NCBI RefSeq assembly: GCF_005221385.1
Contig: NZ_CP039904.1
Coordinates: 62,001-126,000, forward strand
Direction of reading: 5' to 3'
Length of the DNA stretch: 64,000 nt
DNA from: Agrobacterium tumefaciens
GTDB taxonomy: Bacteria; Pseudomonadota; Alphaproteobacteria; Rhizobiales; Rhizobiaceae
Below the pieces are notes generated by a model that was given only the letters and a program-made list of their open reading frames with translations, was not told the origin of the DNA and made no database searches. Made by a program: the position numbers and the translations under genes. Below, piece after piece: positions 4,528 to 54,287 of this stretch. Position 1 is the first letter of the stretch. Every line of letters starts with the position of its first letter.

Positions 4528-4710
4528 TATGCGCCTGTCCGCCGTATCCGGAAATCGTGATTTAAGTAGTCCAACATATGTGCAGAGGCTCACGGTAACA
4601 ACAGCGGTTGCTGTCATCCACAGAAACTGACCCACACAGGTTGCGGGTTGCACCTTCTCGTTGCGGTGTTAGAAGGGAAATACCGTTCCGTGTTCAAGGA
4701 GAGAAAACGA

Positions 4711-5613
4711 ATGCCGATCCCATCGCTTTCCAACCCGAAGACGCTCGCTGACCAGAGCCGGTTGAAGCTGTTTCCGCTGCAAAGCGGCCCGCAATTCGCC
4801 AATGTGAACATTTCCACCGGCGCAAGCGGCATCGTCTTCACCGGTTATACGCGAGATGCGAGTGCGGATAACGACGCCTTCTCCTGCTGCGGCAGCTATA
4901 CGCTGCGCAACTCCGTCCACGCTGCCATTGCCGGCATGACCAGCGACAATTGCACGCTGTTTGCCCTGAAAAGCGTCATCAATCAGCGCCCGTGCCTCGC
5001 CGTTGGTGGTTTCGATGCCGAAGGCAAGCCCGTCCGGCTGTCGCAGACGGAATTTGAACAGGTCACCAGACCGCTCTTTAATTTCGCCGACAAGGTTTCG
5101 CCGATCCTCGGCAGCGAACCGGCACCGGGCATTCAGGTGCGCAGCGGTGACGCCTCCTACAATTATCAGGTCGATGCGCGCAGCGGCCGTTTCCGCTTCA
5201 CCTATAAGGACAGCATGAACGGTGGGCTTTTCGGACCTTCCGCCGACGGCAATGTTTCGCTTGAGCACGACGGGCACCGACTTGCCAGAATAAGCGCGGG
5301 CGGCAGCTACAGCCAGTCCGACAATTCGATCAGCGGCTCCGCCTATCGCGACATCGATTCCCGTGGTTTCGATGCGACTGTGCGCAGCGGGCAGGCTTCC
5401 GCCATGTTCGGAAGAACCTATACGGAAAACGCCATCACGCGCAAAATCGGCATTGGTTATGGCAATACCTCATTGCGCCGTGAGGACACGCCCGGCGGAA
5501 CAATCAAGGAAAGCCTCGAACACAAGCTGGAAAAAGTCACCCTAGAAGTGTCCCGCACCCGCGACCGGGCGAAAGGCACCGAATATATGCTGACGATCAA
5601 GATGCAGCTGTAA
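4711..5613 (+). CDS. Hypothetical protein
   Basis: This 300-residue protein starts at the ATG at 4711, which has a strong AAGGAGAG site; the longer frame from 4648 lacks one. The N-terminal half includes a Cys pair in DAFSCCGSYTLRN and the segment NCTLFALKSVINQRPCL. The C-terminal half is rich in Gly, Ser and Arg with alternating hydrophobic residues (SGSAYRDIDSRGFDATVRSG), suggesting beta structure. There is no signal peptide. I do not recognise a family. It is divergent from the exonuclease and upstream of the sigma-factor cassette. Confidence 0.65.
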   Translation: MPIPSLSNPKTLADQSRLKLFPLQSGPQFANVNISTGASGIVFTGYTRDASADNDAFSCCGSYTLRNSVHAAIAGMTSDNCTLFALKSVINQRPCLAVGGFDAEGKPVRLSQTEFEQVTRPLFNFADKVSPILGSEPAPGIQVRSGDASYNYQVDARSGRFRFTYKDSMNGGLFGPSADGNVSLEHDGHRLARISAGGSYSQSDNSISGSAYRDIDSRGFDATVRSGQASAMFGRTYTENAITRKIGIGYGNTSLRREDTPGGTIKESLEHKLEKVTLEVSRTRDRAKGTEYMLTIKMQL

Positions 5614-5753: not shown

Positions 5754-6263
5754 ATGACGCAGCGCGACGACAAATTCCTTTCGGCATTCCTGAAAACCCA
5801 GTCGGATATCAAGCGATATCTGACGCGGATGACGGGCTCGCGCGAGGATGCCGAGGATCTTGCCCATGAGGCATGGATCAAGCTGGCGAGAAACAGCTCG
5901 AATGCATCCGCAGCACCAGTGCCTTATCTCAAGCGCATCGCTAGGTCGCTGGCCATCGATCATGGGCGGGGACGCAGGCACAGGGCCACGACCGAACAGA
6001 TCGAGGATGCCCTTTCCATTCAAGACGAGCGCCCGGGTCCTGACCAGCAGGTGATCGACCGCGACCAGATCCGGCAGCTTATGCGGGTCATCGGTGAACT
6101 GCCGGATCGACAGAGAAAGATGCTGGTCGCGGCGCGGCTGGAATTTCGTCCCTATGCCGAGATCGCGGAAGAGTTCCATGTCTCCACCCGCACGGTGGAA
6201 ATGGAAATCAATCGCGCCCTCAGCTACTGCATCGAGAAAATGGGACATGAGCGGCGCAGATAA
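5754..6263 (+). CDS. ECF-type RNA polymerase sigma factor (FecI/HasI-like)
   Basis: This 169-residue protein has the two conserved ECF sigma regions. Region 2 is at about residues 10-75 (TGSREDAEDLAHEAWIKLAR, then PVPYLKRIARSLAIDHGR). Region 4 is near residues 110-160 (IGELPDRQRKMLVAARLE, then YAEIAEEFHVSTRTVEMEI). It is followed by a FecR-type anti-sigma gene and a TonB-dependent receptor with a signalling domain, the standard cell-surface-signalling order. It should direct RNA polymerase to the receptor operon when the outer-membrane receptor is occupied. Confidence 0.9.
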   Translation: MTQRDDKFLSAFLKTQSDIKRYLTRMTGSREDAEDLAHEAWIKLARNSSNASAAPVPYLKRIARSLAIDHGRGRRHRATTEQIEDALSIQDERPGPDQQVIDRDQIRQLMRVIGELPDRQRKMLVAARLEFRPYAEIAEEFHVSTRTVEMEINRALSYCIEKMGHERRR

Positions 6264-6349: not shown

Positions 6350-7276
6350 GTGTTGAACGAAGGATCCGATGCGCTCAGGAAGAAGGCCACGTCCTTTATC
6401 GTCAGGCTGCGCTCCGGCGCGGCCACGGTTGAGGATACAGAGGCGCTCCGCCACTGGCGCAGCCTCAGCGCCGATCATGAGCGCGCCTTTGTCGAGGCCT
6501 CGGCGCTCTGGCGCGATCTTGGCCCGGCCCTGGAGGCGCAGGCGAAGCCCCCCGTCAACGCCACATCCAGACGATCTTTTCTGGTGGGCAGCAGCCTTGC
6601 CGCCGGCCTTGCAGGCATTGCCATCGCCCTGCCGGAACTCGGTTACCTGCCATCCATCGGCGCAATGCTTGCGGATTTTTCGACTGGCGTCGGCGAGCAG
6701 CAGAATGTCAGCCTGCCGGACGGATCGACCGCCTTTCTCGACGGCGGCTCCGCCCTGTCGCTGGACAGCGGCGAACGGCAGTTCGATCTCACGGCAGGTG
6801 CAGCGGTTTTCACCGTCCAGCAGGCGGCGAACATTCCTTTTGTGGTCAAAGCCGGCAATGGCCGCGTGCAGGCCTCCAGCGGCGCGTTCAGCGTCACCCA
6901 TAATGCCAGCGGCGTGACCGTGGAATGCCTGTCCGGTCCACTCAGCGTGCACTGTCTCGGCGATGCGCAGCTGCTTCCGGGAGAAGCAATCGTCTATTCG
7001 GACGCTGGCCTTGGGGAAAAATCCGCAATCGACCTCGAGACGGCATCGGCATGGCGTGAAGGCATGCTGGTCTTCAACAACCGTCCGCTGGAAGACATCG
7101 TCGCGAGCCTGAACCGCCACCGGCGCGGCAGGATCATCATCACCCGTCAAAGCCTGCGCTCCCTGCACGTCTCGGGCGTCTTTCAGCTCAACCGGCCGCA
7201 GGACATTATCGCGCATCTTGAAGAAACCCTGCATCTTCATGCGGTTGGCGCAGGCGGAATCCTGCTGCTCGTCTAA
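6350..7276 (+). CDS. FecR-family anti-sigma / sigma regulator
   Basis: This 308-residue inner-membrane protein starts with GTG. The cytoplasmic N-terminus (about residues 5-65) has the DUF4880-like pattern of FecR proteins (FIVRLRSGAATVEDTEALRHWRS, then DHERAFVEASALW). A single membrane segment lies near residues 80-100 (SFLVGSSLAAGLAGIAIALP). The periplasmic FecR domain follows (VSLPDGSTAFLDGGSALSL), and the C-terminal region (FNNRPLEDIVASLNRHRRG, then ISGVF-like VSGVFQLNRPQ) is the STN-like part that contacts the receptor. It should hold the upstream sigma factor inactive until the receptor signals. Confidence 0.88.
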   Translation: MLNEGSDALRKKATSFIVRLRSGAATVEDTEALRHWRSLSADHERAFVEASALWRDLGPALEAQAKPPVNATSRRSFLVGSSLAAGLAGIAIALPELGYLPSIGAMLADFSTGVGEQQNVSLPDGSTAFLDGGSALSLDSGERQFDLTAGAAVFTVQQAANIPFVVKAGNGRVQASSGAFSVTHNASGVTVECLSGPLSVHCLGDAQLLPGEAIVYSDAGLGEKSAIDLETASAWREGMLVFNNRPLEDIVASLNRHRRGRIIITRQSLRSLHVSGVFQLNRPQDIIAHLEETLHLHAVGAGGILLLV

Positions 7277-7405: not shown

Positions 7406-10400
7406 ATGGAAGGGAATACGGGGATGACTTTATTGGCGACGGGACATAAATCCGGTGGTCGCGAACGGCGTTTGAGGCTCGCAGCATTCTGCGCATCACT
7501 GGCCTGCTCCGTATCCTTAGTTGCCCATACCCAGGCCGTTGCGCAGGAGCTGCGCCAATTTTCCATTCCCGCCGGCTCCCTCGATGTGGCGCTGACGCGT
7601 TTTGGCGCCGCAAGCGGCATCCAGATTTTCTACGACGCATCCTTGACGAGAGGGCTCAAAACCTCCGGAGCAGCCGGCTCCCTGCCGCCGCGGGAGGCAC
7701 TCGGCAGGCTGCTTGACGGCACCGGCCTCAGCTTCCGCTTCACCGCGCCCGATCGCGTGACGGTCTCCAATGCCTCACAGGCACCGGAGGCAACCTCTGC
7801 GGATGGCTCGCTCGTTCTCGAAACAATCACCGTCACCGGCAAGACCGGACGATATGGCAGTCCGGATGCGCCTTACGGCAACGATGCCCCGACCGCCTTC
7901 ATTTCGGGTGAAGATATCGAGCGCTTCCGCGGCTCAAGCCCGGCCGACATGTTTCGTGGCACGGCCGGCGTCATGTCCGGCGAAGCGCGAAACGGCGCCG
8001 GTGCCATCGACGTCAACATTCGCGGCATGCAGGGAATGGGCCGCGTCGCCACGACGATCGACGGCGCCGAAAATTCCGTGACTGTCTATCAGGGTTATCA
8101 GGGCGTCTCGAACCGCACCTATGTCGATCCCGATTTCATCGCCGGTGTCGACATTACCAAGGGAGCCGATGCTGCTTCCTTCGGCAATGCCGGATCAGTG
8201 GCGATGCGAACGGTCGGCGCCGACGACATCGTCAAGCCGGGCGAAAAATGGGGGCTGAAGGTCAAGGCTGGCTTCGGCACCAATTCATCAAGCCCGACCG
8301 AAGGGGCATTGAGCGGCTATAGTTACCAGTCCGGCGCAGGCACCGCGACACCGTCCGCTGACGGCATGGACAGGCCCGCCTTCCTCAAGCCGACGACCGG
8401 TTCCGGCAGCGTCATCGGCGCTTACAAGGGCGAGGACATCGATGTCGTCGCCGGATATGCGCATCGCCGCCAGGGCAATTATCACGCCGGCAGCCACGGT
8501 CCTGTCGCGTCCCCGAAAAACATCGGCGACACGAAATATTGGGGCGGCACTTTGCCCAACACGATGATCAATGAAGGTCTGGTCAACTATCGCGGCGGCG
8601 AGGAAGTCCTCAATACCGAGCTGGAAACCCAATCGCTTCTGGCGAAGGTCACGGCGCGTCTGTCAGACGATCAGACATTCCAGATCGGCTACATGGGATA
8701 CAGAAGCGAGGCCGGCGACAGGCTTGCCTCGCGGCTGACCTCGAATACCGGACAGGCGCAGCAGCAGGAACAGACCGTCAGCACCAGCCTCGACACATTT
8801 ACCGCCAGATACAACTGGAACCCCGAAGACAATGACCTCATCGACTTCAAGTCGAATTTCTATTTCAACCATCTCGAAGTCCGCAACCCCGTGCGCGGCG
8901 GGCGTGGCCTGACGCCAGAGAAGATCGGCCTGCCATCAGGCTTCCGGGTCGGCACCGATACCAATATGTGGGGAGCGGAGATTACCAACCGCTCGCAGTT
9001 CAGCCTGGATTACGGCGATTTCGACCTGAATTACGGACTTTCCTACCGTGCTGAAGACACCAAGGGCAGCGACCACACCGCCGTTCTGGAGGGCTGGCTG
9101 ACACCGCGCGACGCCATTCGCCATGAAGGCGCAGCCTTCGCCAAGGCAGCTTACAAACCGGTGGACTGGCTCACCCTTAATGGCGGGTTGCGATACTCCC
9201 ATTATTGGGTCGAAGACAGGTTCGATCCCTATGAGCGTTATCAGGCGCGGGACAAGCCGGTTGGCCTGAAAGTGGATGACGGCGGGTTCAGCCCATCTGC
9301 CGGAGTGACGCTGGAACCGTTCGACAATACCCAGTTCTACATCAATTATTCGAATACGCTGCGCTCGCCATCCATCATCGAATCCGTCTCGGCCTTCAAC
9401 AGCGTCATCGCGAATTCGGGTGTCCTGCCGGAACGCTCCAGCAACTGGGAAATCGGCACCAACATCATTCGCGACGGCATCCTCTCCGACGATGACACCG
9501 CCATGATCAAGTTCGGTTATTTCAACTGGGATGTGAAGAATTACATCTCGCGCACCGTCGTGACCGAACCACAGTTGACGTTGAATATCGGCAATATTCC
9601 GCGCGCCAAGTTTTCCGGTCTCGAACTTTCCGGCCGATACACCAATGGCGGATTTTCGGCAGATCTTTCCGCCAACTACTTCCTGAATGTCGAATATTGC
9701 CGCACGACCCAGACCTGCGACAGCAAGTCTCTCTATGGCGACTATGCGACGAACCATGTTCAGCCGGAATATACGGTCGACCTGACGCTTTCGCAGAAAT
9801 TCCTCGAGGACCGGCTGACGGTCGGGGGCCGCATCTCCTATGTCGGCCCGCGCGCCATCGGCCACGGCGACGTCACCGCGCAGGGTGCGTCGGAATTCAT
9901 CGCGCTTGTCGACTGGGAACCCTATACGCTGGTCGATCTGTTTACCGAATACAAGATCAACGACAACATGACCGCGAGCCTGCGGGTGGAGAACCTGTTC
10001 GACCGTTTTTATGTCGATCCGCTCGGCCTCGTCACGCAGCCCGGTCCCGGCCGCACCATCTATGCCAGCCTTACGGCAACGATCGGCGGCGGCGAGGCCC
10101 TGCCCGGCCTTTCCCCCTTCAGCCGCCCGACGGACGCATCCTTCGTGCGTGACTGGACCGGCTTCCATGTGGGTGCCCATACCGGCGGCGATTTCCTGAA
10201 TTTTGCGGGAAATACGACCTCGCTGGATGGCACATTCAACGATGCGGCCGCACGGGAATCGGCCGATTTCAACCTGCGTGGCGGTGCGTTTGGACTACAG
10301 GCCGGTTATGACCGGCAGCTGGAAAACGGCCTTGTCGTCGGCGTGGAGGCCGATTACACCAAGACCTATCTTCGTGGCCTCGAAAAGTTCGGTTCCACCG

Positions 10401-11011
10401 ATCCGGTGCTGGCAAAGAGCGGTCACCTGGACGCAACGACCAGCTACGATATCGACTGGACGGCCGGTCTGCGCGCGAAGCTCGGTTACGCCGTGAATGA
10501 CAGGTTGCTCGTTTATTCCACCGCCGGCCTGGCGCTGGCGAAAGAAACCCAGTGGCGCGACCAGTATATTTCAGACGGCGCGAGCGGGACCAATCCCCTT
10601 GGCTCCGAAACGACGGCATTCTTTGTGGAGAAGGCTTCCGGAACACGTGCCGGCTTCACAATCGGCCTCGGCGCGGAATATGCGCTGAACGACAATTGGT
10701 CGATCCGTGCGGATTACAGCTACAGCCATTTCCGCGCCAAATCGTTGAAGTTCAAGAACGCCCGCGCCGGCACCGGCAAGGATTATCGCACCAGTGAGCA
10801 GACGGGCACGGAGATGGTCGATCCCGGCTTAAAGAATGATCCGAACATGGCTTGGCTCTGCGATTCCATGCCGGAAGTCTGCGAGCCCTATGAATCACCG
10901 ATCTACGAATATGTGGACCATGTGGGGACATCCGGAATTGCCAACGGCCGCAATGCCTCGAACTCGCTGAACATGCATGCCATCAAGGTTGGGCTGAACT
11001 ATCGCTTCTGA
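7406..11011 (+). CDS. HasR-like TonB receptor fused to Omp25-like barrel
   Basis: This is a 1201-residue outer-membrane protein. The order is: signal peptide (ending near QAVAQ); STN signalling domain, about residues 45-120; plug, about 130-260 (VNIRGMQGMGRVATTIDGAE is typical of HasR-type heme receptors); and a 22-strand barrel ending near residue 895 with GRTIYASLTATIGG. Unusually the frame continues. After a short linker, WTGFHVGAHTGGDF (residue 917, base 10154) opens a second barrel of about 285 residues. It resembles Omp25/Omp31-type porin-like proteins and ends in the usual aromatic NYRF. The start at 7406 has AAGGCGG upstream; 7358 and 7424 are alternatives. Its sigma and anti-sigma genes lie upstream, so heme or heme-protein uptake is likely. 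Confidence 0.9.
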   Translation: MEGNTGMTLLATGHKSGGRERRLRLAAFCASLACSVSLVAHTQAVAQELRQFSIPAGSLDVALTRFGAASGIQIFYDASLTRGLKTSGAAGSLPPREALGRLLDGTGLSFRFTAPDRVTVSNASQAPEATSADGSLVLETITVTGKTGRYGSPDAPYGNDAPTAFISGEDIERFRGSSPADMFRGTAGVMSGEARNGAGAIDVNIRGMQGMGRVATTIDGAENSVTVYQGYQGVSNRTYVDPDFIAGVDITKGADAASFGNAGSVAMRTVGADDIVKPGEKWGLKVKAGFGTNSSSPTEGALSGYSYQSGAGTATPSADGMDRPAFLKPTTGSGSVIGAYKGEDIDVVAGYAHRRQGNYHAGSHGPVASPKNIGDTKYWGGTLPNTMINEGLVNYRGGEEVLNTELETQSLLAKVTARLSDDQTFQIGYMGYRSEAGDRLASRLTSNTGQAQQQEQTVSTSLDTFTARYNWNPEDNDLIDFKSNFYFNHLEVRNPVRGGRGLTPEKIGLPSGFRVGTDTNMWGAEITNRSQFSLDYGDFDLNYGLSYRAEDTKGSDHTAVLEGWLTPRDAIRHEGAAFAKAAYKPVDWLTLNGGLRYSHYWVEDRFDPYERYQARDKPVGLKVDDGGFSPSAGVTLEPFDNTQFYINYSNTLRSPSIIESVSAFNSVIANSGVLPERSSNWEIGTNIIRDGILSDDDTAMIKFGYFNWDVKNYISRTVVTEPQLTLNIGNIPRAKFSGLELSGRYTNGGFSADLSANYFLNVEYCRTTQTCDSKSLYGDYATNHVQPEYTVDLTLSQKFLEDRLTVGGRISYVGPRAIGHGDVTAQGASEFIALVDWEPYTLVDLFTEYKINDNMTASLRVENLFDRFYVDPLGLVTQPGPGRTIYASLTATIGGGEALPGLSPFSRPTDASFVRDWTGFHVGAHTGGDFLNFAGNTTSLDGTFNDAAARESADFNLRGGAFGLQAGYDRQLENGLVVGVEADYTKTYLRGLEKFGSTDPVLAKSGHLDATTSYDIDWTAGLRAKLGYAVNDRLLVYSTAGLALAKETQWRDQYISDGASGTNPLGSETTAFFVEKASGTRAGFTIGLGAEYALNDNWSIRADYSYSHFRAKSLKFKNARAGTGKDYRTSEQTGTEMVDPGLKNDPNMAWLCDSMPEVCEPYESPIYEYVDHVGTSGIANGRNASNSLNMHAIKVGLNYRF

Positions 11012-50144: not shown

Positions 50145-50174
50145 TGTTTATTGCCACGGGGTGATTTTTCACCT

Positions 50175-50744
50175 ATGCAGCCCGGGATCGCTCAATCCTT
50201 CCGACCGGGAACCCGCCTCATGTGGAGCAAGCCCACGTCCCGCGCACTCATCGATGATGCCGTACAGCTCTATTATGAGGAACTGTGCAAGGCCATGAAC
50301 CGGCGTGGACACACGACTGCCATTTCGCAGGAGATCGTTCACGATCTCTACGTGCGGCTGACCGGCAAACCCCGGCTCCCGGAAAATACCTCGCTCATCC
50401 GCGCCTTTCTGGTGCGCGCCTGCGCCAATCTCGGCATTGACCGGCGTCGCCGCGAACAGTTCGAGCGCAGGCTGTTTTCCGGCAGCATGGAAGAAGCGCT
50501 TGCCGCGCCACAGCCCGTCAATGATGCCGACAGCCTGGCCGACCGGGAACATCGCCTGAAAGTGCTGCGCCGCGCCGTCATGTCCATGTCGCTGCAGCGC
50601 CGGCAGGTCTTTCTTGCCAGCAGCATCGGAAACCTGAATTCGGTCGATATCGCCGCGCGAAGCGGCATCAGCAAGAACATGGTCGATCGTCATCTGCGCA
50701 AGGCCTATCTGCATTGCCTGGAATGCCTGGAGGAAACGCTGTGA
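50175..50744 (+). CDS. ECF sigma factor (FecI-like)
   Basis: This protein of about 190 residues has sigma region 2 (LIDDAVQLYYEELCKAMNRR, IVHDLYVRLTGKP) and region 4 (AVMSMSLQRRQVFLASSIGN, NSVDIAARSGISKNMVDRHL). The C-terminus is MVDRHLRKAYLHCLECLEETL-like, typical of FecI proteins. Start is uncertain: ATG 50175 or ATG 50220 (MWSKPTS, the more compact protein). It overlaps the anti-sigma gene (GTGA) and has an iron-responsive operator before it, so it should activate the downstream receptor under iron limitation. Confidence 0.87.
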   Translation: MQPGIAQSFRPGTRLMWSKPTSRALIDDAVQLYYEELCKAMNRRGHTTAISQEIVHDLYVRLTGKPRLPENTSLIRAFLVRACANLGIDRRRREQFERRLFSGSMEEALAAPQPVNDADSLADREHRLKVLRRAVMSMSLQRRQVFLASSIGNLNSVDIAARSGISKNMVDRHLRKAYLHCLECLEETL

Positions 50745-51691
50745 CGGGATTGGCAAAAAGCGCCTCGACGTTGCGCGAAGAGGCCGTCGACTGGTTCCTG
50801 CGGCGACGGGAAAGCCCGGACGACCCCATGCTCTCAGCGCATTTCGATGCCTGGATCGCCGGGGATGAACGACATGCAAAGGCCTATGAGCGTGTCCGAT
50901 GTCTTATGGGCGACGCCGGCGCCCTTCTGGCGGGTGATCAGGCGTTTCTGGCAAAGGCAACGCGCAGGCGCGGCAGCGGCAAAGCCAAAGCGGCAGCGGC
51001 GGCCATTGCCGGCGTCTCGCTGCTTTCCGCCTTTTACCTCACCGACATGCCCATGCGTCTGCGTTCCGACCATATGTCCGGCACGGCGGAACGGCAGGTC
51101 GTCACCACTCCAGATGGCTCGACCATCACCCTGAACGCCCACTCCGCGATTGCACTCCGTTTCTCCAAAGAGGAGCGGCGCGTTGTGCTGCTGCGCGGGG
51201 AAATCTTCGTGGAAGTCGCTCCCGATGCGGCGAGGCCTTTTTCCGTCGAGGCGGCAGGCGGCGCGACCACCGCGCTCGGGACGGCCTTCGACGTCGATAT
51301 GCGCAATGAAGCGACGAGCGTGACGGTGCTGGAACACAGCGTGCAGGTGGAAACGGGCGAGCAGGGCCAGAATGGCCGGGTTCATGAAAACCAGCGCGTC
51401 GATTATTCGCCCGACGGCCAGCTTGGCAGCATCGAAACGGTCGACCCCTCCTCCGTTGCCGCATGGCGCAACGGCCGCTTCATCTTCGAGGACAGGCCGC
51501 TTGCCGAAGTGGTGGAAGCCTTCGAGCGTTATCTGCCCGGCCGCATCGTCGTGACGCGGCCGAGCCTGCGGCAAAAGCGGCTGTCGGGCAATTTCGACCT
51601 TTCCAACCCAAATGCCGCTCTTGCGGATCTGGCCGCCGCGCTTGAAATCGGCGTCGTCAAAGCCGGCCCTTATCTGACGGTTCTTTATTGA
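50741..51691 (+). CDS. FecR-family anti-sigma / sigma regulator
   Basis: This 316-residue inner-membrane protein starts with GTG at 50741, overlapping the sigma-factor stop, after GGAGG. The cytoplasmic N-terminus reads VDWFLRRRESPDDPMLSAHF and DERHAKAYERV. The membrane segment is AAAAIAGVSLLSAFYLTDM near residues 85-105. The periplasmic FecR domain follows (VTTPDGSTITLNAHSAIALRF, VLLRGEIFVEV). The C-terminus (FEDRPLAEVVEAFERYLPG, RLSGNFDLSNPNAAL) is STN-like. It transmits the receptor signal to the sigma factor. Confidence 0.88.
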   Translation: MTGLAKSASTLREEAVDWFLRRRESPDDPMLSAHFDAWIAGDERHAKAYERVRCLMGDAGALLAGDQAFLAKATRRRGSGKAKAAAAAIAGVSLLSAFYLTDMPMRLRSDHMSGTAERQVVTTPDGSTITLNAHSAIALRFSKEERRVVLLRGEIFVEVAPDAARPFSVEAAGGATTALGTAFDVDMRNEATSVTVLEHSVQVETGEQGQNGRVHENQRVDYSPDGQLGSIETVDPSSVAAWRNGRFIFEDRPLAEVVEAFERYLPGRIVVTRPSLRQKRLSGNFDLSNPNAALADLAAALEIGVVKAGPYLTVLY

Positions 51692-51711
51692 GTGAAATTT
51701 CTTCGCCGGGG
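51692..51711 (+). promoter_or_regulatory. Candidate ECF promoter motif
   Basis: GTGAAATT-TC-N5-CGGGG begins one base after the anti-sigma stop and 91 bases before the receptor start. It matches the motif at 6309 (GTGAAATT-CC-N5-CGGGG) with identical spacing. Confidence 0.35.
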
Positions 51712-51782
51712 GTGTCCTTAAAAAACGGGCCCATTCGTTCGTGGAGCAGAACAATATCTGCCGCCCCGGAGAGGTGCCCGAA

Positions 51783-54287
51783 ATGACCAGACCACAACCC
51801 GCTTTTCGCCACAGGACACGCGCCCGCGCATCGTTGTTTTCGCTTTTGCTTGCCAGCGCGGCGGTGGCGGCTATTCCCGCACAGGTCTCCGCACAGCAAA
51901 CCCAGAAGGTTGCGATCAACCTGCCCGCCGGCAACATGGCGACCGCGCTCAATCGTCTCGCCAGCCAGTCCGGCCTGCAGATGGTCTATGACGCTTCTGT
52001 CGCCAGGGGTCTGAAAAGCGCTTCCGTATCTGGAACCATGACACCGGCCGAGGCGCTGGAGCGGCTGCTTTCGGGAACCGGCATTCGTTACCAGTTCATC
52101 GGCGAAAAAACCGTCCGTATGGAAATGGCCAACCGTTCCGCCACAGCCTCCGAGAGCGGTGAAAGCACCGTGCTTCAACCAATTACGCTCAAGGGCGGAC
52201 GCGTCTTCAACGGCGATGCCCCAAGCGTGGTCGAGATCGATCAGGCCGCCATCGAGGCCGCACAGTCCAACTCCCTGCCGCAACTTCTTCAGAAAACGCC
52301 GGGCGTCAGCTCCAGCGGCGGCGTGCGCTCGCAAGGTCAATCCACGTCCATTCGCGGCTTTGCCCGGCAGTCCGATGTGCGGCTGCTGCTGGATGGCGCA
52401 CCGAAGAATTTCGAGCGTTACGACCAGGGCACCGTCTTCATCGACCCGGAACTGCTCAAGCGCGTGGAAATCCAGAAAGGCGCGACATCCGTCCGCTACG
52501 GCAATGGCGGTTTCGGCGGCACCGTCATCATGGAAAGCAAGACAGCTTCCGACATGCTGAAGCCGGGCCAGAGCTTCGGCGCATGGGGCAAGACCAGCTT
52601 CCAGTCGGCCAACAAGCAGAAGCTCGGATCGGCGGCGATTTACGGCAAATCCGATTTCGGCGGCCCCGTGACCTATGACGGGCTTGCCTCGGTGATCTGG
52701 CGCAAGAGCGACAATATGCGCGTCGGCGGCGGTCAGGTCTATGACGCGTCCAACGACAAGATCACCTCTTTCTCCGCCAATGCCGGTGCTGCCTATGACG
52801 GCCATGAGCTGCGCGCTTCGGTCATTTACGGAAAATCTGGCGATTACGGCCCGCTTGCCGCCAATCGCGGCGATCTCGGTCTGACGGCCTACTCCATCAA
52901 GACCTATGGTTATGATCTGGCGCGGCTGAGGGCACTGGCCTGGCGTGACATGGAGGATTTTTCCTCAACGCTGAAATATTCCTATGACGGCGACAGCGAC
53001 CTTGTGAATTTCAAGGCAATGGCGAGCTTTTCCGCCACCAGCCTCGATATGACCCGTCCGGCCATTCCGGGTTTCGTTCCGACAGGCTCGCTCGGCGGCA
53101 TGCAGGACGACACGAAATATACCGACTTCAAGCTGGAGGCGGAAAACACGTCCAATTTCGAGCTCGGCGGCGTGTCCCACGTCGCCAATTACGGTGTGCA
53201 ATATATGCGCCACGAGCGGGACTCGTGGATGTACGACATCGCCAACCGCACCAGCGCCCAATATAATTACGGTCGTTATGCCTCATGGATCAAACCGGAA
53301 GGCAAGCAGGAAACCATCGCCGCCTTCTTCCGCGACGAGATCAGCCTGACCGACACGTTCAAGGTGACGCCGGGCATCAGGTTCGACCATATCCGCTCGC
53401 AAGGCGTGCCCAATGCCGCGCCGCGCTACAACACGCCGGCCGCCGGTCACGATTATTCGGCCGTGTCCCACAGCGGCGCGACGCCGGCTCTCAGCATGCG
53501 CTGGGAAGCGGTGCCGGGCACCACCTTCTTTGCCGACTGGGCCTATGCCATGCGCGCGCCCGTCATCGACGAACTCTATTCAAGCCAGAGTCTCGCAACC
53601 ACGGCGTCGGGAACCTCCCGTAACCTGAAGGTGGAGCGCAATAACAACTTCAATCTGGGTGTTTCCCAGCGTTTCGATGACGTGTTCCAGAACGGCGACA
53701 GCCTGACGGCCTCGATCGGCGGCTTTTATAACAACGTTACCAATCCCATCACCCGGCGGTTCGGCAGCGCCAACCTTGCCCGCGTCAAGAATGTGCCCTT
53801 CTACTGGAACACACCGTCCTACAAGATTTACGGCCTCGATTTCTCGGCAAGTTACGATTCCGACTACGTCTTCGGAAATCTCGGCCTCTCCTGGATGAAC
53901 GGTTCCCGCAACGGCGCGATCAACGACGTCTATGGTCCCGATACCTATATGAACGACCTGTCGCCGCTGACCGCCAACCTTCAACTGGGTTACAAGCTGC
54001 CGGACTGGGATCTGGCGCTCAGCTGGAACGGGCAGTTCGTGGCCCATCAGGAGCGCACGCCCGTCAATCAGGGCACGGGCTCTTTTTATGCCCGGCCGGA
54101 AAGCCTTGGTTACGCCGTGCATGGCATCGCTCTCGACTGGACACCGAAGGAAGGCATGATGGCCGGGCTGGAAGTGCATGCCGCAGTCGAAAATCTGTTC
54201 GACAAATATTACTTCCCTTATCTCAGCGATGGCATCGCTGCCCAGCCGGGCCGCAATTTCAAGCTGTCGATCAGCCGCAAATTCTGA
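51783..54287 (+). CDS. TonB-dependent heme/hemoglobin-type receptor
   Basis: This 834-residue outer-membrane receptor has a signal peptide (ASLFSLLLASAAVAAIPAQVSA); an STN signalling domain at about residues 40-120 (INLPAGNMATALNRLASQSG); a plug (LPQLLQKTPGVSSSGGVRSQ, TSIRGFARQSDVRLLLDGAP); and a barrel ending in FKLSISRKF. It resembles the hemoglobin/transferrin/lactoferrin class (NLFDKYYFPYLSDG). GAGAGGTGCCCGAA precedes the ATG at 51783. Length is normal, in contrast to the fused receptor at 7406. The sigma and anti-sigma genes upstream complete a cell-surface-signalling operon. Confidence 0.92.
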   Translation: MTRPQPAFRHRTRARASLFSLLLASAAVAAIPAQVSAQQTQKVAINLPAGNMATALNRLASQSGLQMVYDASVARGLKSASVSGTMTPAEALERLLSGTGIRYQFIGEKTVRMEMANRSATASESGESTVLQPITLKGGRVFNGDAPSVVEIDQAAIEAAQSNSLPQLLQKTPGVSSSGGVRSQGQSTSIRGFARQSDVRLLLDGAPKNFERYDQGTVFIDPELLKRVEIQKGATSVRYGNGGFGGTVIMESKTASDMLKPGQSFGAWGKTSFQSANKQKLGSAAIYGKSDFGGPVTYDGLASVIWRKSDNMRVGGGQVYDASNDKITSFSANAGAAYDGHELRASVIYGKSGDYGPLAANRGDLGLTAYSIKTYGYDLARLRALAWRDMEDFSSTLKYSYDGDSDLVNFKAMASFSATSLDMTRPAIPGFVPTGSLGGMQDDTKYTDFKLEAENTSNFELGGVSHVANYGVQYMRHERDSWMYDIANRTSAQYNYGRYASWIKPEGKQETIAAFFRDEISLTDTFKVTPGIRFDHIRSQGVPNAAPRYNTPAAGHDYSAVSHSGATPALSMRWEAVPGTTFFADWAYAMRAPVIDELYSSQSLATTASGTSRNLKVERNNNFNLGVSQRFDDVFQNGDSLTASIGGFYNNVTNPITRRFGSANLARVKNVPFYWNTPSYKIYGLDFSASYDSDYVFGNLGLSWMNGSRNGAINDVYGPDTYMNDLSPLTANLQLGYKLPDWDLALSWNGQFVAHQERTPVNQGTGSFYARPESLGYAVHGIALDWTPKEGMMAGLEVHAAVENLFDKYYFPYLSDGIAAQPGRNFKLSISRKF

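Follow-up and report, generated by a model that had tools for sequence, protein, structure and literature searches.

A HasR-like TonB-dependent receptor with a second, eight-stranded outer-membrane barrel at its C-terminus in Agrobacterium tumefaciens

The receptor locus and the layout of the chain

The window, a stretch of 64,000 nucleotides from the Agrobacterium tumefaciens contig NZ_CP039904.1, carries on its plus strand genes for an ECF sigma factor (5754..6263, 169 aa), a FecR-like anti-sigma factor or sensor (6350..7276, 308 aa) and a TonB-dependent receptor (7406..11011). The FecI-like sigma factor has Sigma70_r2 and Sigma70_r4_2 matches above the cut-off and is matched by many ECF models, its score lying below the cut-off of the FecI equivalog; the FecR-like protein is recognised by FecR (PF04773), DUF4880 and FecR_C. 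An ORF of 321 residues upstream of the sigma gene (4648-5613) gave zero Pfam matches. Elsewhere in the window, at 50151-54287, a second such group of three ORFs was named by eye, one sigma-like, one FecR-like and one for an STN-type TonB receptor (848 aa) that does not have a second barrel.

The receptor gene is an open frame of 1201 residues plus stop with zero internal stops, and its start could be either 7406 or 7358, since an in-frame ATG at the latter position would make a protein of 1217 aa. A signal peptide, predicted by eye, covers residues 1-47 (7406..7546, +). It is followed by an STN signalling domain at residues 72-121 (7619..7768, +; PF07660, E 2.7e-10), which aligns with the signalling domains of HasR and FecA, by the plug at residues 162-262 (7889..8191, +; PF07715), and by barrel 1 at residues 282-895 (8249..10090, +), where the TonB-dependent receptor barrel model PF00593 matches residues 421-864. 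A linker of residues 896-918 (10091..10159, +), with low pLDDT, leads to barrel 2 at residues 919-1201 (10160..11008, +), where OMP_b-brl (PF13505) matches residues 917-1122. Barrel 2 has a long fourth outer loop (residues 1117-1181; 10754..10948, +) that contains Cys1152 and Cys1159. All of these Pfam matches are above the cut-off.

The AlphaFold2 model of the mature chain, made from a 39-sequence alignment, has a mean pLDDT of 80.7 and a pTM of 0.75 (residue numbers in the window protein, P0001, are those of the model plus 47). Its strand list, counted by hand, contains 22 strands between residues 282 and 895, then a low-confidence linker, and finally eight membrane strands from 919 to 1200 with an additional hairpin in the last outer loop. 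Barrel 2 also folds by itself, with a mean pLDDT of 93.2. Thus, with PF07715 and PF00593 above their cut-offs and 22 strands, the first part is a TonB-dependent receptor, and with a score above the gathering cut-off of PF13505 and a complete eight-stranded barrel, the second part belongs to the OMP_b-brl family. Having two complete barrels in one chain, the protein belongs with the alphaproteobacterial fused multi-barrel outer-membrane proteins. The sequence-only reading had placed the last of 22 strands near residue 895, had let the frame continue without a stop into WTGFHVGAHTGGDF, and had proposed a complete eight-stranded barrel ending in NYRF. These landmarks proved correct, and Pfam, the two structure models and conservation all support a chain with two complete barrels. 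Among the database names of homologues that were seen, all are receptor names, and the second barrel is never mentioned.

Receptor type and genetic context

Several observations relate the receptor to heme uptake. It scores 337.2 bits with the heme/hemoglobin receptor model TIGR01785, above the NCBI curated cut-off of 316.85, and 251.3 with the sister model TIGR01786 (hemoglobin/transferrin/lactoferrin), below the cut-off of 323.75. The best PDB match by sequence is HasR, the heme/hemophore receptor of Serratia marcescens (3csl, E 2.8e-57; also 3ddr), which is also first by E-value in Foldseek, with a target-normalised TM-score of 0.78. The heme receptor ChuA reaches a higher target-normalised TM-score (0.86), and the label 'HasR' therefore rests on sequence and on the STN domain. 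HasR shares the STN-plug-22-strand layout, and the combination expected of a HasR-type receptor, an STN domain accompanied by genes for a sigma and an anti-sigma factor, is present here, with the sigma and FecR-like genes alongside; the HasR chain, however, stops after its barrel, whereas the window protein adds barrel 2. The heme ligands of HasR, which we take to be histidines in loop 7 and at the plug apex, have no conserved counterparts: there is no His in residues 652-686 of P0001, the barrel-1 stretch aligned with the loop-7 ligand region, and Tyr231, an invariant Tyr in 40 of 40 aligned rows, stands opposite the plug-apex His. For this reason we call the receptor HasR-like rather than a HasR. 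The cargo may accordingly be something other than heme.

The genetic context was examined in 78 distinct loci, obtained by keeping the best 80 of 347 relatives in a genome scan. The neighbours belong to the FecR cluster in 61 of these loci, to TonB in 26, to ExbB in 7 and to ExbD in 5, and a putative ECF sigma cluster adjoins in 45. For the FecR, TonB, ExbB, ExbD and heme oxygenase clusters, at least one representative each was confirmed by Pfam. A heme oxygenase gene lies near the receptor in 15 of the 78 loci, and directly downstream in 14. One locus (L085) has sigma and FecR genes before the fused gene, and heme oxygenase, ExbB, ExbD and TonB genes after it. In the window, no heme oxygenase adjoins the receptor; the single one of the genome lies on another contig (C1). 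Since the oxygenase neighbours fused and unfused receptors alike (8/46 and 7/31), this context supports heme as the cargo and not a heme role of barrel 2 specifically. Overall, the features of the receptor and its locus point to heme, though the presumed His ligands of HasR are not conserved.

Distribution and history of the fusion

A search with residues 900-1201 yielded 55 proteins. The alignment running through both barrels consists of P0001 and 39 proteins (P0002-P0022, P0024-P0028, P0030-P0041 and P0048), giving 40 rows; two short proteins (P0023 and P0029) and 14 of other architecture were left out. Among the 78 loci, barrel 2 is present in 46, as a tail of about 220-320 residues past barrel 1, a proportion that overstates how common the fusion is because the loci were ranked by their match to a fused query. 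Another 31 end at the last strand of barrel 1 or at most three residues from it (three in L044), and one (L075) is interrupted by a contig end. Prevalence is better judged from an evenly drawn sample of 397 genomes belonging to the order: 22 have the receptor at E<=1e-100, and the match extends into barrel 2 in three (the window's own genome, G402 and G228). The matches read through were G402, which is fused, and G188, G307 and G323, with long open frames or close relatives, which all end at the first barrel; three of 397 is therefore a working figure. In a survey of 39 genomes of the genus, eight, including the window's own, have a full-length copy with 93-100% identity, and one further fused copy matches at 38% (G036). 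Some of the surveyed genomes are the same assemblies as those of the 78 loci, so these sets are not independent. In another genome of the genus, an isolated piece (G025:C19:498926-499120) is 59% identical to residues 1138-1201 and has a stop within the match; it seems to be what is left of a fused gene.

The fusion has a wide but patchy distribution, occurring in Rhizobiaceae, Brucellaceae, Xanthobacteraceae, Hyphomicrobiaceae, Nitrobacteraceae, Caulobacteraceae, Sphingosinicellaceae and others, and plasmid records of Pseudochrobactrum, Ancylobacter and Ketogulonicigenium have the same continuous architecture. Unfused relatives 41-60% identical to the query also exist. Five assemblies of the 78-locus set hold fused and unfused copies together: Pseudochrobactrum asaccharolyticum (L055/L056), P. 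kiredjianiae (L062/L031), Brucella pituitosa (L060/L017), a Brucellaceae bin (L061/L070) and the doubtful record SK6B4 (L071/L033). The last of these is titled Bacillus subtilis; its two copies group with Pseudochrobactrum and other Brucellaceae, and the record is probably mislabelled or contaminated. An unfused copy ending in Trp (L068), from a record titled Klebsiella sp. BIGb0407 and thus gammaproteobacterial, groups with two Mesorhizobium copies, and is either a transfer or another mislabelled record.

These observations bear on whether two genes could have been joined by an error of sequencing or annotation, for instance through a frameshift or missed stop near 10090, which the sequence-only reading had named, together with homologues all lacking the second barrel, as grounds for abandoning the fusion. 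Neither situation was encountered. We found no evidence in support of an artefact, and the continuous frame in relatives (46 of the 78 loci and the plasmid records of three genera) as well as the low dN/dS on either side of the junction make it exceedingly improbable. The pairing of the receptor with a second barrel is real and is shared by various related bacteria. Three close pairs (L008, L009 and L010) give a dN/dS of 0.061-0.096 for barrel 2 and 0.035-0.064 for plug plus barrel 1, showing that both barrels are under purifying selection. The linker evolves faster, with a dN/dS of 0.31-0.39 in the two close pairs for which it could be computed; its sequence varies, and its length is held (median 23, range 16-32, n=46, i.e. 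45 loci and the window).

In a receptor tree made quickly from 77 family rows and two poor outgroups, and whose root is not settled, the fused/unfused label takes five changes, at least four of them forced by starred branches. The deep branches are mostly fused, with the unfused L082 and L084 also deep, and one nested group holds 24 of the 31 unfused rows. The 39 fused barrels take two changes in a tree built together with 70 other PF13505 domains; one clade of fused barrels is not rejected (AU p 0.845), the tree constrained in this way being 33.84 log units above the free tree. The second barrels are therefore compatible with a single origin, which these tests do not prove. The distances of receptor and barrel 2 are correlated (Mantel r 0.69, 0/2000 permutations, n=39). 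One old fusion followed by several losses would be the simplest reading of this pattern.

The correlated distances and the linker also bear on the view that barrel 2 is an independent surface protein, such as an adhesin, a porin or a hemin-binding protein, that is merely co-expressed with the receptor and perhaps released by cleavage in the linker once inserted. The low confidence, variability and faster evolution of the linker would suit this view, as would the commonness of stand-alone relatives (the window's genome has eight PF13505 matches above the cut-off, barrel 2 included). However, the linker is 16-32 residues long in all 46 cases measured, barrel 2 tracks the phylogeny of the receptor, and in the fetched flanks of the 31 unfused loci a separate relative of barrel 2 lies near only two (L055 and L071). 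We therefore consider an independent protein unlikely.

The fusion is also reflected in the C-terminal beta-signal. The position at which unfused chains end has Phe in 29, Trp in one and Leu in one of the 31 unfused loci, whereas this old C-terminal position in the 46 fused loci has Phe in 30, Ile in 11 and Leu in five; in the window protein, it is occupied by Ile893. Phe ends 45 of the 46 fused chains at their new C-terminus, the exception (L030) departing from the family frame near its end. These numbers fit a terminal beta-signal that has moved to barrel 2, leaving that of barrel 1 internal and partly relaxed. This could mean that barrel 2 serves mainly in assembly, by providing BAM with the C-terminal signal and letting that of barrel 1 relax, and BAM has been reported to read internal signals too (eLife, PMC10945584). 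Such a role accounts for relaxation after the fusion, though not for keeping an entire barrel whose outer rim is conserved, and 31 relatives do without barrel 2; we regard it as quite improbable as the main function.

A possible role for the second barrel

The fold matches of barrel 2 are eight-stranded barrels of the OmpW/NspA/OmpA type. Taking as conserved those positions shared by at least 75% of the 39 fused barrels, and using as the comparison set the 70 other barrels, several of which are labelled 'outer membrane immunogenic protein' in their source, we found 22 conserved positions specific to the fused barrels, 19 of them on the outer half, and 36 shared ones, two of them on the outer half. 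This enrichment (Fisher p 3e-10; with the fourth loop excluded, 15/18 against 2/36, p 1e-8; at a threshold of 85%, 11/14 against 2/28) is overstated by its p-values, because there was no control family of matched diversity and the inner halves of different barrel families are more alike anyway. Examples of the specific positions are Glu951, Arg1051, Gln1053, Tyr1054 and Arg1182. The last 110 residues contain two Cys in 26 of the 39 fused barrels, none in 13, and never one. The marker for the fourth-loop stretch has a median of 105 in fused barrels (range 53-117, n=45, several being short), compared with 56 in stand-alone ones (range 49-65, measurable in 11 of the 70), so that most fused barrels have a longer fourth loop than the stand-alone ones measured. 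The outer rim and this loop could, from their sequence features, form a binding surface.

Omp31 and the Bartonella hemin-binding proteins (Hbp), which we take to be members of PF13505, would on that basis fall in the same broad eight-stranded family as barrel 2, as would Omp25. They stand alone, whereas barrel 2 is fused to a receptor. Omp31 has been reported to bind hemin, as have some of its relatives, among which the Hbp proteins are counted (PMC9728373; PMC12279742).

The sequence-only reading offered two hypotheses for barrel 2, a docking site for a heme protein or a stabiliser. In the second, barrel 2 would be a structural partner without a ligand that anchors, spaces or stabilises the receptor relative to LPS, to neighbours or to itself. 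The OmpA/OmpW-type fold agrees with this, the linker of constant length and variable sequence fits side-by-side packing, and the five fused/unfused changes, at least four of them forced, fit a dispensable helper. The family-specific conservation, however, lies on the outer half and not on the membrane or periplasmic faces, and a long loop with paired Cys seems more than a stabiliser needs. We consider a structural partner doubtful, while judging it a better candidate than an independent protein. Given the heme-locus context, the conserved outer rim, the long loop with paired Cys and the hemin-binding Omp31/Hbp relatives, a capture or docking role appears somewhat more likely than pure stabilisation.

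The architecture being established, we infer that the protein is a HasR-like, signal-transducing TonB receptor for heme or a heme protein in which barrel 2 is a tethered surface-capture module of the Omp25/Omp31 type, a reading to which we assign a probability of about one half (0.48). BAM would insert the two barrels next to each other. Heme or a heme carrier would be bound by the outer rim and the long fourth loop of barrel 2 and transferred to barrel 1, which would import heme using TonB. The STN domain would signal through FecR and FecI for higher expression, and the heme oxygenase encoded elsewhere in the genome would free the iron. Against capture stand the absence of barrel 2 from 31 of the 78 relatives, the 13 of 39 fused barrels without a Cys pair, the short fourth loop of several, and the unmatched outer-rim comparison, outer halves differing between barrel families in general. 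A functional likeness to HpuAB may be proposed: in these bipartite heme/hemoglobin receptors, a TonB receptor works with a surface partner that aids cargo binding (PMC3792355), the partner being a separate lipoprotein rather than a fused integral barrel.

As to whether two complete barrels in one chain are rare, this description was right, except that other such fusions exist. Fusions of two or three full-length outer-membrane proteins have been reported (Reddy and Saier 2016, PMC4827864), and section 17 of that survey describes four barrel-barrel fusions, including MnoP of Bradyrhizobium, all of them alphaproteobacterial and all involving the same eight-stranded family. These proteins share two or three complete barrels, one of them BRP/OMP_b-brl, with partners given there as OprB, alginate-exporter or PomS/T; TonB receptors (1.B.14) are not among the four. 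In MnoP, the eight-stranded barrel is N-terminal, whereas in the window protein it is C-terminal. We found no fusion of this module with a TonB receptor in the literature searched. Barrel-barrel fusion is thus already known, and what is new, as far as that literature goes, is a transducing receptor of the heme type with a second integral barrel.

Other architectures were seen among the related proteins. Five chains (P0042, P0046, P0063, P0064 and P0069) have two or three PF13505 barrels, and in P0050 PF13505 precedes an OprB porin, as the same survey describes for MnoP. P0044, of 1891 residues, has a plug, a TonB-type barrel and, after these, four PF13505 barrels in tandem (four stretches in Pfam; four domains, one partial, with our own HMM).

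A broader reading, which we hold more tentatively than that of a capture module, is that alphaproteobacteria have repeatedly built poly-barrel machines by means of the eight-stranded OMP_b-brl module, and that the present case would be a covalent, membrane-embedded co-receptor handing heme to a TonB receptor. P0044, if real, would have five barrels in one chain and be its extreme case. BAM would then have to fold two unlike barrels with two beta-signals in one chain, and in the literature covered we found no test of how it ends one barrel and begins the next on the same chain. Because unfused relatives exist and five assemblies hold both forms, the family offers a natural test substrate for BAM. 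As a natural fused co-receptor, it would also make it possible to measure, by simple truncation, what a TonB transporter gains from a tethered capture surface.
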